20,914 nucleotides of DNA from a virus: the IMG/VR virus record IMGVR_UViG_3300029309_000414, positions 1-20,914 of that record; one strand, 5' to 3'. The position numbers were made by a program, and so were the translations under genes. Shown here piece by piece: positions 9,616-14,480 of this stretch (its first letter is position 1; every line of letters begins with the position of its first letter). The notes below the pieces were generated by a model that was given only the letters and a program-made list of their open reading frames with translations, searched no databases and was not told the origin of the DNA.

Positions 9616-9808
9616 TGATTAGTGATCTTATTTGGTCAAACTCTCCATCCGTTTCTCTCTTGTATTTTCTTATGGTATTGTGGAGTGCGTCTGTGTTTCT
9701 TTTTGGTTCTCCTCCTTCAGAGTGAAGGGCTTCATACAAGGCCGTTGCGGCCTCGTGTATTCTGTTAGTGCATTTATAATATTGGTTACTCAGTTCTTTG
9801 GAATCCAT
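9581..9808 (-). CDS. Small helical hypothetical protein
   Basis: A 75-residue, mostly helical, charged protein with no membrane segment (HEAATALYEALHSE, TIRKYKRETDGEF, DQIRSLINEFKDD). I do not recognise it. It overlaps the resolvase gene by 23 bp at its start and the glycosyltransferase by 35 bp at its end; overlaps on both sides and an ATG start argue that it is a real operon member rather than a chance frame. Confidence 0.55.
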   Translation of the reverse strand: MDSKELSNQYYKCTNRIHEAATALYEALHSEGGEPKRNTDALHNTIRKYKRETDGEFDQIRSLINEFKDDSSDIS

Positions 9809-10163
9809 GACATTTAATCGTTGCTACAAATTGGTTTTTCTCTAGGCTCGGATCAAAGGCAGTAGATTGTTTCATGAAATATTTCGGCGTGTCGTCAACA
9901 ACGTAGTCATTGTTGCGTAAATAATCAGCAAGAAACTTAATGCAAATGATACTATTATCCACATCAAACCTACAATTATACCTAACAGAAAGACTAAATC
10001 TTTCCGCAGTAAAAGTAGGTACTTCTTTAAGTTCTTCTTCGATACTTTTGAAGTAAGATTCCTTGGCCCTAGTTCTAGATGTCCAATGACGTCCTGCATA
10101 AAACGCATTAAGGCTCGGCGGTTTCGGAAGTTGGAGTACAATCTCATAGTAATCTTCAATCAC
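9786..10163 (-). CDS. rusA: RusA-like Holliday junction resolvase
   Basis: RusA-type endonucleases are small dimers that cut four-way DNA junctions made by recombination or replication-fork events. The 125-residue length is typical. The N-terminus has LPKPPSLNAFYAGRHW (12-27), matching the P-x-x-x-N motif of the family; FDVDN (66-70) gives Asp67 and Asp69, and VVDD (88-91) gives the third acidic position, with the helix IKFLADYL between them as in RusA. The start is a GTG (10163) four bases after the helicase stop; no better in-frame ATG exists. The neighbours (primase-helicase, exonuclease, ERF protein) make a role in resolving phage replication or recombination intermediates likely. Confidence 0.88.
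   Translation of the reverse strand: MIEDYYEIVLQLPKPPSLNAFYAGRHWTSRTRAKESYFKSIEEELKEVPTFTAERFSLSVRYNCRFDVDNSIICIKFLADYLRNNDYVVDDTPKYFMKQSTAFDPSLEKNQFVATIKCHGFQRTE
9955..9963 (+). promoter_or_regulatory. Consensus DnaA box inside the RusA-like gene
   Basis: TTATCCACA matches the 9-mer DnaA box exactly. It is the only perfect copy I found, and one copy in 21 kb of AT-rich DNA is not far from chance. It is listed because this phage encodes a DnaA domain IV-like protein about 2 kb away. No cluster of boxes or obvious AT-rich unwinding element accompanies it. Confidence 0.25.
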
Positions 10164-10167
10164 ACCA

Positions 10168-11958
10168 TTAAAATAGGTATTTTTGTCTGTCCTGCAAAGT
10201 TAAAGGCAAGAAAAGTTTTGAACCTGATATCCATGTATGAAACCCTGTCATGTTTTTATTTATCTGAAAAAGAATTGGTTGACTCTTTGGAGTAGGCTCC
10301 CCTCCGGTCTCCTTGTTTCTTTGTTTTGACACATGAAATTCTGTGATTCTTCTAACCTCCGGATCGTCTGAGTTTAATCGCCTATGCCATACTAGTAGGG
10401 TATCTGCGCGATTACTAAATTTAGAACCACCTTCAGATTCTGAACCCAAAGGCGCGACTTGTAAACCATCTTGTCCCTTGGCTCTTTGAGCCGAAGTTAC
10501 TGAGTGAGTGTTCAGCCAAACGGCTAAATCATTCTTGGTTGACATTGTTAACAACTCTGATGCCGCCTCATAATGATACTCATGTGAGTTCAATTTACTT
10601 TGGCCCATTTGTAGTTTTAAACTATTGTATGGATCAATAAAAAATCCCTGATAACTATCTTGCCTCATTAATTTTTCTGCGAATATTAACATATCCGAGT
10701 ATCCGTAAGTCTGATAGTTGTTTATGAGTACAAAATGATGCTTAACGAAGTTGAAAGCAAACAATCTTTCTTCAGCATTCATATTATGAATTGGTTTATC
10801 CATGCAAAATTCCATCAGCCTCATCTTTACTGCGCCGGTTTTATTCTCAGATGAATAGACAATCCATTTCCAATTGTGATTGATGGCACTAGACATCAAC
10901 ATATTCAATGCCATTGTAGTCTTTCCAATGTTGGAGTGGCCAACGATAACAACAAATTCTTTTTTGAAAAGAAAATAAGGATCAAGGTTAGGGCATCCTG
11001 TAGATAGGCCCATCTCAATATCCCCACGAGAAAAATCCTCTATCCATTTGTAGTCTTCACTATCTGATGCAACAAAAGACATATCCCCATTGTTAATTTG
11101 CATCTCTCTAATGGCGGCGGCCTCTTCTTCTAGGGTAGCCCTAATCGGTTGCCTTTTACCCTCTTCTATTCCATCTAATAAAGTCCTGACTGCGTGATCT
11201 AAATCCTCTACATCTTTATGTTCGAGTTCCCTACGCATAACCCTGACGGCTTCATCCTCTTCTAGACGTCCGGCCGCTATGTAACCACCGGCTAAAACGC
11301 TAGCCTTACATAGTATTAAATGCTTTTCCCCATCGCTTGCGCCACGAATCATTGAACATATAATGTTCATTTTGTTATAGTCTGTGTAACTTCGATCCGT
11401 TTTTAATTCTGCTGATTGGTCCAATGCCTTTTCTGATAACATCATACCAAAAGGTTGAGCCGTAGTGTTAATGACTAAGTCCGGATCATGACTTTCATAA
11501 CAAGCCCTTGCCTCATTTATACCCGAAGGATCTACCTCAAGTCCATATGTTTTATCAAAGTAAGATTGTAAGGAACGAAAATGATCTCTGTGTTTGTCAG
11601 GATTGCTTACTTGAACTATCGCTTTTAATCCATCTCCGGAAGGGCTTGCCCAACAAGCCAACACATAATCGTCTGTACCTAAAAGTGATTTTGATTCCTT
11701 GACATTGATGTGATCAAAGTCTAAAACAATTAGACCGCTATGTCTTTTTAAATCTTGATCTTTTCTTCCGTTAAAAACTCCGGAAAACATAGCGATAGGC
11801 AGTTCTTTTTTTTTAGACCTATTCCCTGTCCTTACCTCTTTTACTTTGGACTTGCTTTTTCCTTCTTTAATTCTTTCTAAAGCCGTAGACAAAGACACAA
11901 CCACAGGTTCAGTAGTGTCGACTACTGATTTGTACATGGTTATTTTTTTGTCAAACAT
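10168..11958 (-). CDS. Primase-helicase fusion: BT4734/VirE-N type primase domain plus DnaB-like helicase
   Basis: The 596-residue protein has two parts. Residues 1-165 match the BT4734-like (VirE N-terminal) domain regarded as an archaeo-eukaryotic-type primase fold: GVFNGRK, GLIVLDFDHI with Asp80 and Asp82, SPSGDGLKAIV (105-115), and DPSGINEARACYESHDP (143-159). A helical linker (about 190-290) follows. Residues 310-560 form a RecA/DnaB-like motor: Walker A GHSNIGKTT (340-348), Walker B-like GFFIDPYN (438-445), NTHSV (483-487) and a basic KQRNKETGG segment. It would prime and unwind DNA at the phage fork, as T7 gp4 does with unrelated primase parts. It starts 8 bp inside the preceding gene. 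An alternative start is Met8. Confidence 0.88.
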   Translation of the reverse strand: MFDKKITMYKSVVDTTEPVVVSLSTALERIKEGKSKSKVKEVRTGNRSKKKELPIAMFSGVFNGRKDQDLKRHSGLIVLDFDHINVKESKSLLGTDDYVLACWASPSGDGLKAIVQVSNPDKHRDHFRSLQSYFDKTYGLEVDPSGINEARACYESHDPDLVINTTAQPFGMMLSEKALDQSAELKTDRSYTDYNKMNIICSMIRGASDGEKHLILCKASVLAGGYIAAGRLEEDEAVRVMRRELEHKDVEDLDHAVRTLLDGIEEGKRQPIRATLEEEAAAIREMQINNGDMSFVASDSEDYKWIEDFSRGDIEMGLSTGCPNLDPYFLFKKEFVVIVGHSNIGKTTMALNMLMSSAINHNWKWIVYSSENKTGAVKMRLMEFCMDKPIHNMNAEERLFAFNFVKHHFVLINNYQTYGYSDMLIFAEKLMRQDSYQGFFIDPYNSLKLQMGQSKLNSHEYHYEAASELLTMSTKNDLAVWLNTHSVTSAQRAKGQDGLQVAPLGSESEGGSKFSNRADTLLVWHRRLNSDDPEVRRITEFHVSKQRNKETGGEPTPKSQPILFQINKNMTGFHTWISGSKLFLPLTLQDRQKYLF

Positions 11959-12490
11959 TTTCCTGAATTAGAGGATGTTGATCTATTAAGTTTTTTAACT
12001 CAACGATATCAAATTTTAAATCCATTATTCTTTCCCATTCAGAAAACGGAATTGCTGAAGGTTGTATGGCTAACCTTAAATCCTTGCCTCTAATTATTTT
12101 TTTTTCTGTTTGAGGATCATATAGGGTACAGAGTTCATCTTTCAAACGCTTATATGTTTCAACATATTTTGGGTGCATGGCTAAGCCTTTACGATTTAAT
12201 ATTGTCATAGAGGCGTGTTTCTTTAAAGAATGTATTGCGGTTGCGTGATCCCTGTTTAAAATTTTTCCTATCTCAGAATAAGTCTTCTCTTTTTTAGAAT
12301 GATATCTTAGAATTGCTGAAAGCATTGATCTTCCATCAACATAACTTCGCTCTCTACTTCGTCCCAATAATGTTTTTACTGATAGGTTCAAAAAATAACA
12401 AGCCTTTTGTATGCTTACTTCCGGTTTGTCTACTAAAACAAATTCAATTTTTGGTTTAGTGTTCCTCTTTTCAATTGTGAATCTTTTCAT
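11951..12490 (-). CDS. DnaA domain IV-like DNA-binding protein without AAA+ domain
   Basis: Residues about 25-95 match the C-terminal DNA-binding domain of DnaA: a first helix SIQKACYFLNLSVKTLLGRSR, then SYVDGRSMLSAILRYHSKKE, then TYSEIGKILNRDHATAIHSLKKH with the signature RDHATAIHS (80-88); Ala83 stands where many DnaA proteins have Thr. There is no Walker motif or AAA+ domain; instead a basic/helical C-terminal extension (about 100-179) follows. A role as origin-recognition protein or helicase loader for the adjoining primase-helicase is inferred from the position directly upstream (8-bp overlap). It could also act as a repressor or as a competitor of host DnaA. Its start overlaps the previous stop as ATGA (12487-12490). 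Confidence 0.8.
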   Translation of the reverse strand: MKRFTIEKRNTKPKIEFVLVDKPEVSIQKACYFLNLSVKTLLGRSRERSYVDGRSMLSAILRYHSKKEKTYSEIGKILNRDHATAIHSLKKHASMTILNRKGLAMHPKYVETYKRLKDELCTLYDPQTEKKIIRGKDLRLAIQPSAIPFSEWERIMDLKFDIVELKNLIDQHPLIQENV

Positions 12491-12753
12491 TTCATTGCTA
12501 CACTTAAAAAACCTCCGTTATTTCTAATCATGTCTTGAAATATCTCTTCTAATTTCTGTTTACTATCTGAAGAGAATATAGCATCGCCTGACCTTTGCAG
12601 TTGATACTCTGAATTTTTTTTAACTATTGTATATTTTCTGTGCCGATCATAAACCGATAGGTTTAAGGAATGTTTATTGCCGTTCCTTCCATGCTCGGTA
12701 CATTTTTGCGATAACGGCTCTTCGTTGTGGTTTGAACTTAAATCTTTTTCCAT
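12487..12753 (-). CDS. Hypothetical protein upstream of the DnaA-like gene
   Basis: An 88-residue protein I do not recognise. The first 30 residues are polar and look disordered (NHNEEPLSQK); the rest is a possible small beta/alpha domain (KYTIVKKNSEYQLQ, then SKQKLEEIFQDMIRNNG). It overlaps the DnaA-like gene start by ATGA, which supports it, but its first 80 bases overlap the end of the preceding small gene in another frame, which is long for this genome. No later start codon would remove that overlap. Confidence 0.55.
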   Translation of the reverse strand: MEKDLSSNHNEEPLSQKCTEHGRNGNKHSLNLSVYDRHRKYTIVKKNSEYQLQRSGDAIFSSDSKQKLEEIFQDMIRNNGGFLSVAMK

Positions 12754-12871
12754 ATCTCGCGTTGGCTATTCTGATAAATTGATTGATTTCTTTCTCGTTG
12801 TCATTCATAATGTATGGGTTGAAAATGGGGGGTACAAACCCCCCCAAATTATCTTCAACTAATCTAAACAT
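12674..12871 (-). CDS. Small basic protein coupled to the SSB-tail gene
   Basis: The 65-residue frame starts at ATG 12871, overlapping the previous stop as TAATG. Residues 22-65 (MNDNEKEINQFIRIANARYG, then GKRFKFKPQRR and VIAKMYRAWKERQ) look like real protein: helical, basic, possibly DNA-binding. The first 21 residues run through a G7/C6 hairpin (12827-12845) and are less convincing, so the true start may be ATG 12808 (43 residues), leaving the hairpin in an intergenic leader. The family is unknown to me. Confidence 0.5.
   Translation of the reverse strand: MFRLVEDNLGGFVPPIFNPYIMNDNEKEINQFIRIANARYGKRFKFKPQRRAVIAKMYRAWKERQ
12827..12845 (-). repeat. G-run/C-run hairpin
   Basis: On the minus strand seven G, TTTGTA, then six C form a perfect 6-bp G:C stem with a 6-nt loop, followed by ATTTTC rather than a long U tract. 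It lies either inside the 65-residue gene or, if that gene starts at 12808, in its leader. It could slow transcription or limit translation of the downstream replication genes. Confidence 0.55.
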
Positions 12872-13125
12872 TAAAATGGTAGGTCTTCCTTGACCTCTTC
12901 CTTCTTCTTCATGTACTTCTGATTCTCCGGATCATTAGGATCGAAGACAGACAAAAATGCAGTTCCATCTTGCTTAATAACAAAATCCACATTTATTCTC
13001 TGCGCACCTGTGATATACTTTTTTAGTTCATCAAGTTGCTCAGGTTTGTATGTAATAGGGTACTTAACGATCCCACTATCATACGTTTTGCGGTCACCGA
13101 CGTAACCAATATAAACTTTAGCCAT
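12871..13125 (-). CDS. Small protein with SSB-type acidic C-terminal tip
   Basis: Start chosen at ATG 13125 (MAKVYIGYVGDRK), preceded by the leader AAATTAAATACA, nearly the same as that of the ERF gene; the longer frame to 13185 would overlap the exonuclease gene. The 84 residues have two strand-rich parts (AKVYIGYVG; INVDFVIKQDGTAFLSVFDP) and a charged tail ending KKKEEVKEDLPF. An acidic tail ending D-[ILV]-P-F is the hallmark of bacterial SSB proteins, where it docks helicases, primases, recombinases and nucleases. The protein is shorter than a full OB-fold SSB (about 110 residues of core) and I cannot confirm an OB fold. Position between the exonuclease and the replication genes supports a role on single-stranded DNA. 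Confidence 0.7.
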   Translation of the reverse strand: MAKVYIGYVGDRKTYDSGIVKYPITYKPEQLDELKKYITGAQRINVDFVIKQDGTAFLSVFDPNDPENQKYMKKKEEVKEDLPF

Positions 13126-13135
13126 TGTATTTAAT

Positions 13136-13951
13136 TTAAATGGTGTCAATGCGATAGTGTGTTTCACTAGCGCGATCACTCTCAATAAATCGAGCGATGT
13201 TGTCTATAGCCTCGTTGAATTGCTTTTTACCCAAGTTTAGAGTTTCCTCAGAGGCTTTATAGACTGCGGGTAAATAGGGATATGTTTTCTCTTGACCTAC
13301 CCAAAAGAAATCTCGGTAGGTGTCATCATCTTTTTTATATGCTTCCCGATATAGGTAGGCTTGCAAACTATACATATATTTTCCTTTGATATCCCAACGT
13401 AAACCATGCACACTTTGTGTACTCTTGCTATCGCTGATGAATGTATCGCCTAAACAATCAAGAAACCCCCTGATCATTACATCTCCATAATTCTCTGTCG
13501 GTATTGGTCTTTTAAACTCTGCCTGACAATCTCCGGTAAGATATAATTCTTTGATTCCACAATCCTCTAGCCTTGTTATCATGTCGATAGCCTTAGCGTG
13601 ATCGTCAACATTTACCATCTCTTTGTCAGGGTTATCCTCTTCTAGTTTCCGGAGTAAATCCTTATATACTTTAGTTGCTCTAGGGTTTTTTATACCCTTT
13701 GCTTTTAAGTTACCAACGATGTCTTCATCCTCTATCAAGACAAACCTATCGTCAAATTTTTCCGGAGTAAGAAGTAAGCAGTCGTAAAGTGAACCAAATT
13801 GCAAGGCCGGAGTAGTATACTTCATCTTATCTTGGAACTTTAACTCAAACAATCTCATATCCCCTGTAGGATGTCCATATTTGAGAGTAGAATAAGAAAG
13901 GTAATCCTTCTTTCCACCGGTTTTTTCTTTTAATGCCTTAATAATATCCAT
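13136..13951 (-). CDS. RecE-like PD-(D/E)XK exonuclease
   Basis: The 271-residue protein fits the exonuclease VIII/RecE-type branch of PD-(D/E)XK nucleases. It begins with DYLSYSTLK, then LQFGSLYDCLLLTPEKF (50-66), the motif that in many relatives carries a His where this one has Tyr/Asp. The active site is readable as Glu145 (AEFKRP), Asp165 (GFLDCLGD), Asp174-Ser-Lys176 (ISDSKSTQS) and a QAYLY motif (197-201). It would degrade one strand of double-stranded DNA ends to expose single strands for the ERF protein, whose gene overlaps its start as TAATG (13951). The pairing equals lambda Red exo/bet in function. The C-terminal third (FFWVGQEKTYPY onward) is also typical of the family. Confidence 0.88.
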   Translation of the reverse strand: MDIIKALKEKTGGKKDYLSYSTLKYGHPTGDMRLFELKFQDKMKYTTPALQFGSLYDCLLLTPEKFDDRFVLIEDEDIVGNLKAKGIKNPRATKVYKDLLRKLEEDNPDKEMVNVDDHAKAIDMITRLEDCGIKELYLTGDCQAEFKRPIPTENYGDVMIRGFLDCLGDTFISDSKSTQSVHGLRWDIKGKYMYSLQAYLYREAYKKDDDTYRDFFWVGQEKTYPYLPAVYKASEETLNLGKKQFNEAIDNIARFIESDRASETHYRIDTI

Positions 13952-14460
13952 TACTTAATCGCCTCTAGTTTTTTATACTGAGCCGGTGTAATCTTACTAC
14001 CTTTCTTTTTCCTTATGGTCTCCAACACCATCGGTCTTTCTTGAGGGGATTTGGATTTTAAATGATTCATTGCATCGTTAAATACATTACCCGATCCGGA
14101 AATCCCTTGTGTGGAATTGCCATCGTCATCTTCAGCCCTGAGTCCTAACAAAGAAACCAACGAATACCTTCTGTAATAAGTAATCGCTGATCCTACTTTT
14201 TGAGGCTCTTGTTCTAATGGCAAGGGCAATACAGACACTATAGAATTACCCTCTAGATCAGAAATAATAGTGTTTACGGCTCCATCTATGATGGGTTGTA
14301 ACAATACTAATTCGTGTTTTTTAAGTAGGGGTTGTAGCACTTCCACAAGTGCGTTGATATCAAAGTATTCTGATCTGAAAAAAAGATTTTTGTTTGTCTT
14401 GGATATTGTTCCAATTTCAGATTGCAGTTTGAAAATTTTCTTATAAATTTTATTTTCCAT
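13951..14460 (-). CDS. erf: ERF-family single-strand annealing protein
   Basis: ERF proteins bind single-stranded DNA and anneal complementary strands in phage recombination. Residues 88-114 carry the family signature: KVGSAITYYRRYSLVSLLGL followed by RAEDDDGN. The N-terminal half (IYKKIFKLQSEIGTISKTNK, DINALVEVLQPLLKKHEL, LEGNSIVSVLPLPL) has the usual helix-then-beta order. Start chosen at ATG 14460 (169 residues), next to the leader AAATTTAATACA shared with the SSB-tail gene; an upstream ATG at 14511 would add 17 residues that read through the promoter-like region. The C-terminal 25 residues (RKKKGSKITPAQYKKLEAIK) are basic. The stop overlaps the exonuclease start (TAATG). Confidence 0.9.
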   Translation of the reverse strand: MENKIYKKIFKLQSEIGTISKTNKNLFFRSEYFDINALVEVLQPLLKKHELVLLQPIIDGAVNTIISDLEGNSIVSVLPLPLEQEPQKVGSAITYYRRYSLVSLLGLRAEDDDGNSTQGISGSGNVFNDAMNHLKSKSPQERPMVLETIRKKKGSKITPAQYKKLEAIK

Positions 14461-14480
14461 TGTATTAAATTTTAGGGGTT

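Follow-up and report, generated by a model that had tools for sequence, protein, structure and literature searches.

A small phage protein with an SSB-type tip beside recombination genes: a candidate SSB-equivalent hub with a core unlike that of SSB

The described systems closest to the locus studied here are phage modules that combine a single-stranded-DNA-binding protein (SSB) with a single-strand annealing protein (SSAP). In phage HK620, the annealing protein Sak4 is reported to bind single-stranded DNA (ssDNA) coated by the cognate phage SSB only if the SSB has its last six residues, NDYPPF, and annealing is stimulated through these same residues (PMC5928155). The host tropism of some phage annealing proteins has been ascribed to recognition of the SSB C-terminus (PMC10711431), and the tip of E. 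coli SSB alone binds RecO, PriA, PriC, and chi, with differing affinity (PMC7145534). The locus described here is of this known kind, a phage SSB/SSAP module, with a tip-bearing protein whose core may turn out to be a new fold. It resembles HK620 in that the gene of a phage protein with such a C-terminal tail adjoins the SSAP gene, but the HK620 protein is reported as a bona fide SSB, whereas no relation to SSB could be detected for the core of the tip protein, which is about 63 residues long. The order of domain, variable linker, and acidic tip ending in P-F is shared with bacterial SSB (PF00436; E. coli tail DDDIPF), to which neither sequence homology nor an OB-fold match was detected. As a preliminary description of this DNA had noted, the protein is also shorter than a canonical SSB, with 84 aa versus 178 aa in E. 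coli.

The window, meaning the whole stretch of DNA that was analyzed, is a 20,914-base virus record. The preliminary description had placed the tip protein at 12871-13125, and these coordinates are correct, but the plus-strand frame given for it has two internal stops and the gene lies on the minus strand. The reported 84 residues ending in KEEVKEDLPF are indeed encoded there, by an 84-codon open reading frame (ORF) that runs from an ATG at 13125 to 12874 and is followed by a TAA stop at 12873-12871. The surrounding recombination operon was also recognized correctly, and its genes follow each other in the order listed, with the parts of the tip protein set below its gene:

13951..14466, minus strand: Erf-type SSAP, start taken at the ATG at 14466 (PF04404, 3.1e-20)
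13136..13951, minus strand: exonuclease of the DUF3799 / exonuclease VIII type, 271 aa (DUF3799, 5e-20; phrog_412, 1.2e-33)
12871..13125, minus strand: tip protein coding sequence, 84 aa, stop included (ORF translation)
12937..13125, minus strand: core of the tip protein, residues 1-63 (alignment and predicted structure)
12889..12936, minus strand: linker, residues 64-79, variable and of low model confidence (alignment and model)
12874..12888, minus strand: SSB-type tip EDLPF, residues 80-84 (alignment)
12674..12871, minus strand: 65-aa ORF whose start overlaps the tip-gene stop (TAATG), without a family match
12487..12753, minus strand: 88-aa ORF of the same operon, without a credible family match
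11951..12490, minus strand: DnaA C-terminal (HTH) domain protein, a putative initiator (PF08299, 9.8e-10)
10168..11958, minus strand: primase-helicase with a BT4734-like N-terminal part, DnaB type (Pfam/PHROG profile matches)
9786..10163, minus strand: RusA-like Holliday junction resolvase (phrog_4632, 4.5e-9)

The TAATG overlaps at the Erf/exonuclease junction and at the junction of the tip gene with the next gene make both pairs look translationally coupled, and the gap between the exonuclease and the tip gene is 10 nt. The DnaA C-terminal-domain gene adjoins the helicase gene, and an iterated profile found similar ORFs in 56 of the 80 exonuclease loci described below. The helicase matches 44 records, mostly of Flavobacterium, Cellulophaga, Nonlabens, Tenacibaculum, and Maribacter phages and also of Pseudomonas, Synechococcus, and Planktothrix phages, and these relatives, the sole basis for a host assignment, suggest a host among the Bacteroidota. 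Genome scans with patterns from the tip-protein and exonuclease alignments detected no relative in GTDB, and hence no linkage to a host.

The exonuclease is the constant upstream neighbor of the tip gene. Of 84 IMG/VR relatives found with the exonuclease alignment, 80 were kept as loci, and in 78 of these a small ORF ending in [LMV]PF lies within 460 nt downstream of the exonuclease. The contigs of the two loci lacking one (L080 and L090) stop about 300 nt past the exonuclease, so the slot is filled in 78/78 loci where the contig suffices. The starts of the slot ORFs range from 31 nt before the matched end of the exonuclease to 458 nt beyond it, and these ORFs represent 56 distinct proteins, ending in LPF (49), MPF (4), or VPF (3). 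By comparison, none of the 2,281 other ORFs of at least 60 aa in these 80 loci ends in [LIVM]PF, a figure that is not a number of independent cases since the loci are partly redundant. Nine codons are used at the Leu/Met/Val position of the tip and four at the Pro position, and the synonymous variation of the Leu and Pro codons points to selection on the peptide and not on the DNA.

Searches that started from the tip protein itself gave the same picture. Ten IMG/VR relatives were found with the window protein, the closest identical (L001) and the most distant at 37% identity, and every one has the ending DLPF. Core patterns of two divergent subgroups retrieved 136 and 223 relatives, from which the best 80 of each were kept, and a third subgroup yielded 8. 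The tip is kept in 80/80 (the best 80 of 136), 73/79 (the best 80 of 223, one being truncated), and 8/8 of them, with retention in the two large subgroups thus measured on the closer relatives. The six exceptions end in VNF (3), EPF (2), or PPF (1), and PPF is also the ending of the HK620 SSB (PMC5928155). Loss of the tip in orthologs, which by the preliminary description would have counted against its reading, is therefore rare, and the tip is retained in nearly all of those examined. The exonuclease is present in 78/80, 77/80, and 8/8 of these tip-found loci, whose contigs overlap those of the exonuclease set, and exonuclease and SSAP together are present in 74/80, 75/80, and 8/8 (flanks of at most 3 kb, with some contigs again shared with the exonuclease set). 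Sak and Erf profiles cross-match, and the counts therefore refer to an SSAP of either kind. The constant position beside SSAP and exonuclease makes the gene a member of a phage SSAP-exonuclease recombination module.

The kind of SSAP varies, with Erf in the window and Sak (PF06378, Pfam) in the three A6-type loci examined. A6-type loci such as L190, L259, and L102 pair the exonuclease and the tip gene with a Sak-type and not an Erf-type SSAP, which suggests modular exchange of the SSAP. One 82,425-base record (G004; loci L041 and L052) has two exonuclease-tip modules, separated by about 60 kb, whose tip proteins differ, perhaps because it holds more than one genome unit or because two alleles were joined in assembly. 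That record and two others among the related phage records of 60-82 kb also have a motif repeated at an exact spacing of 27 bases (G004:C1:37413-37559, G005:C1:71728-71874, and G015:C1:24696-24842), which suggests a gene with a 9-residue repeat.

The slot proteins form a superfamily. Forty-one of them can be aligned, with a core of some 63 residues, a variable linker, and a conserved tip in which P83 and F84 are invariant, and the mean majority frequency in this alignment is 0.91 for the tip, 0.52 for the core, and 0.29 for the linker. Residues 1-63 of the window protein have a pI of 7.9 and a charge of +0.5 (pI 5.2 for residues 1-69), and the cores of the A5 subgroup have a mean pI of 5.5 and a mean charge of -1.6. 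With tails removed, hhalign related the window-type profile to three other subgroups at probabilities of 97.7, 94.9, and 94.8%, compared to 0.3% for the unrelated A4 family. Without tails, the A1 and A6 subgroups first gave a weak 34%, which rose to 94.9%, over 41 columns, with larger profiles. Direct comparison of the A5 type with the A6 and L094 types was weak (1.5-6.9%), and their kinship thus runs through the window-type members.

No credible match among the 41 members was found in Pfam, PHROG, NCBIfam, or PADLOC. Weak matches to Phage_tube_2 (0.0068, 5/41 members), Cas8f (0.003, 4/41), and JetA (0.0024, one member) were read as chance because the libraries disagree, and sequence searches of the PDB gave a best E value of 0.18. 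When six members were used as tblastn queries against 50,697 deposited phage records, the only significant hit was MW202828, found by two A6-type members; the four other members, the window protein included, found nothing significant in these records. Eleven Erwinia and Dickeya phage matches to the window protein were dismissed as chance (E of 0.07 or worse, about 30% identity). The exonuclease likewise had no tblastn match in the deposited phages. A literature search, with most subscription papers outside its reach, found no description of the family or of SSB tips on non-SSB phage proteins.

Neither the predicted fold nor sequence profiles link the core to SSB. AlphaFold2 with 41 sequences gave a mean pLDDT of 80, with block means of 88-91 across residues 11-60, for a beta-rich model with several two-residue N-terminal strands, a helix spanning residues 28-37, and two later strands (46-50 and 56-61). 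The model from nine sequences has its first strand at 4-9, followed by an identical helix and last strands. Foldseek with the two models found no match in the PDB at E≤0.001, and VIA against PDB folds gave a best Z of 2.1 for one model and none for the other. In a viral fold library, the single match at E≤0.001 was the unnamed A0A516LQ04 (E of 1e-4, TM of 0.68), and lower matches were mostly uncharacterized phage proteins. One Cellulophaga phage protein, phi17:2 gp007, lacks the tip, but it was equated with the fold match R9ZYI3 by a guess from length alone and was counted neither way. None of the 41 members matched Pfam SSB (PF00436) at E≤0.1, and hhalign of four subfamily profiles against the SSBs of E. 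coli and eight phages gave 0.1-0.5%, while the control, with halves of the SSB set, gave 99.9%. With no match to the SSB profile, the superfamily does not group with SSB by sequence. What it shares with SSB is the architecture of a variable linker and an acidic C-terminal tip ending in PF; the PF ending is present in seven of the nine SSBs used for comparison, while one ends in PW (Salinibacter phage) and one is without a tip (Gordonia phage). By the preliminary description, a predicted full OB fold with close SSB homologs would have made the protein an ordinary SSB; no OB fold was among the matches listed by Foldseek and VIA, and Pfam and hhalign gave no SSB homology. Judged by these tests, the tip protein does not look like a cut-down OB-fold SSB, and its core belongs to a different, undescribed family.

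The slot can also be filled by a second tip family. Among the 80 exonuclease loci, 74 have a superfamily member, 4 have a member of the A4/A7 family (phrog_24909) in its place downstream of the exonuclease, and the two never occur together. The tip-bearing ORF of L078 was placed in alignment A3 but is left unassigned by the subfamily profiles, the contig of L090 ends early, and L080 is counted among the 74 by elimination. A4/A7 proteins are about 100 aa long and have an SSB-type tip, kept in all seven aligned members, one with an extra Asn; this is the copy of Elemovirus, which ends in DDLPFN. Members of phrog_24909, annotated as hypothetical, lie at L040:3498-3791, L056:3270-3569, L063:3029-3331, and L272:5001-5294 (Elemovirus) and in L273, L274, and L275. 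The gene adjoins Erf and exonuclease genes in Elemovirus and an SSAP gene in a Vibrio phage, and the short stretches around it in a Polaribacter and a Tenacibaculum phage have neither an annotated SSAP nor an annotated exonuclease. The family thus resembles the superfamily in its tip and in the similar slot, and its function is likewise undescribed, but the cores are unrelated by profile comparison (hhalign of 0.1-0.4% between the superfamily and A7). SSB identity was considered for A7 but not adopted. One of seven members matched Pfam SSB at E=0.014, and a profile of three A4 members matched an SSB A chain (6bhw) at E=1.3, but the seven-member profile had no PDB match at E≤1 and gave 0.4% against SSB in hhalign, and for this reason we do not call A7 an SSB.

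A further comparison is offered by Maribacter phage Panino, in which a DUF3127/phrog_4932 protein annotated as "single strand DNA binding protein" has the tip DDLPF and shares its region with Erf and exonuclease VIII genes. Its core, in contrast, is DUF3127, which is matched by 0/41 superfamily members at E≤0.1, as is phrog_4932. For the annotated Panino SSB (60 aa; L023:8527-8867, CDS0039/0040), the match to DUF3127 is confined to the second half of the profile (positions 46-84 of 85), and the ORF in front of it overlaps it in a different frame. The DUF3127 gene may have been split or frameshifted here, or the sequence may contain an error.

A recognizable SSB gene was looked for in 20 chosen records of 53-82 kb that carry the tip gene (19 from IMG/VR and MW202828), which are not known to be complete genomes. 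None of them matched PF00436, DUF3127, phrog_44, phrog_378, or phrog_4932, while the same profiles matched 10, 1, 10, 2, and 2, respectively, of 14 controls.

Based on the HK620 Sak4, tropism, and tip-binding precedents, we propose that the tip protein acts as an SSB-equivalent hub of the phage, with a core that by sequence and predicted fold is unrelated to SSB and would bind ssDNA, a reading to which we give about an even chance. The small core would associate with the ssDNA that the exonuclease produces and with ssDNA at the phage fork, and a flexible linker, predicted from sequence and model, would present the SSB-type tip. The HK620 precedent and the gene order suggest that the tip may dock the phage annealing protein, the exonuclease, or the primase-helicase, as well as host proteins that read SSB tips. 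Such docking would hand ssDNA to the phage recombination machinery and could give an advantage at the phage fork. In favor of this proposal are the near-universal tip, the constant slot, the diverged linker, the exchange of the slot for A4/A7, and the failure to recognize an SSB in the 20 long records. In a Salinibacter phage, an annotated SSB adjoins an ERF SSAP. DDLPF, the commonest tip here, also ends the SSBs of a Bacteroides phage (NDDLPF) and a Flavobacterium phage (HDDLPF), which makes binding by host tip readers plausible. Against the proposal, there is no PDB fold match and no SSB profile similarity, the near-neutral to acidic cores do not suggest a DNA binder, and the A4/A7 replacement family is itself without an established SSB identity.

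The most constant feature of the locus is the adjacency to the exonuclease, and for this reason the strongest rival is an adaptor that does not bind ssDNA, in which the core binds the exonuclease or the SSAP and the tip tethers the complex to host readers of the SSB tip. The adjacency persists whether the SSAP is Erf or Sak, no OB fold was found, and the cores are near-neutral to acidic, all of which such an adaptor would explain. We nevertheless consider it rather unlikely, since the exchange of the slot between the superfamily and A4/A7 is easier to reconcile with a common function in handling ssDNA than with a protein contact specific to one core, and since the tip is already supplied by host SSB, which offers it in many copies. 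An ordinary OB-fold SSB that has diverged beyond recognition would account for the small beta-rich domain, the linker, the tip, and the gene context. However, Foldseek, VIA, Pfam, and hhalign all fail to support it, and a core that has about 63 residues, a single helix, and few strands does not suit it, which makes it improbable.

The preliminary description had suggested either a minimal phage SSB or a decoy, and it is the phage SSB half that is favored here, by the constant slot, the A4/A7 exchange, and the lack of a recognized SSB in the 20 records. A decoy would be a soluble tip titrating the partners of host SSB. The tip sits free on a small protein, and isolated SSB tip peptides bind partners (PMC7145534), but a decoy would need to win against the pool of host SSB. 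It has no obvious reason to stay beside the exonuclease or to be exchanged between families and is thus without specific support; with the constant place beside SSAP and exonuclease, the conserved core, and the A4/A7 exchange all unexpected, we hold it to be quite improbable. Least probable of all, and in our view very hard to credit, is that the C-terminal LPF is a protease degron causing fast turnover. LPF at the C-terminus is a ClpXP signal in some strains of Streptococcus mutans, but the same report describes the effect as dependent on the strain and LPF as not recognized in E. coli, and a figure title excludes (other) streptococci too (PMC5143411). The acidic residues preceding the tip are also SSB-like, and the tip is common to unrelated families at the same module.

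Beyond this locus, the SSB-equivalent hub might stand for a large unnamed class of phage ssDNA-hub proteins without an OB fold that combine a core of about 60 residues of undescribed fold with an SSB tip and are a constant part of Erf/Sak-exonuclease modules in uncultured phages, a generalization that we put forward only tentatively. The proposal offers a testable function for a family present in hundreds of IMG/VR loci yet, with six queries, in only one of the 50,697 deposited phage records. The host range of some phage annealing proteins, ascribed to recognition of the SSB C-terminus (PMC10711431), limits recombineering in new hosts. A compact tail-bearing protein encoded beside an SSAP and an exonuclease would be a candidate third recombineering component for poorly tractable bacteria. 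Our findings suggest that the SSB tip has been reused on unrelated cores; if the generalization is true, phages would have attached it, as a portable recruitment module, to two or more of them.
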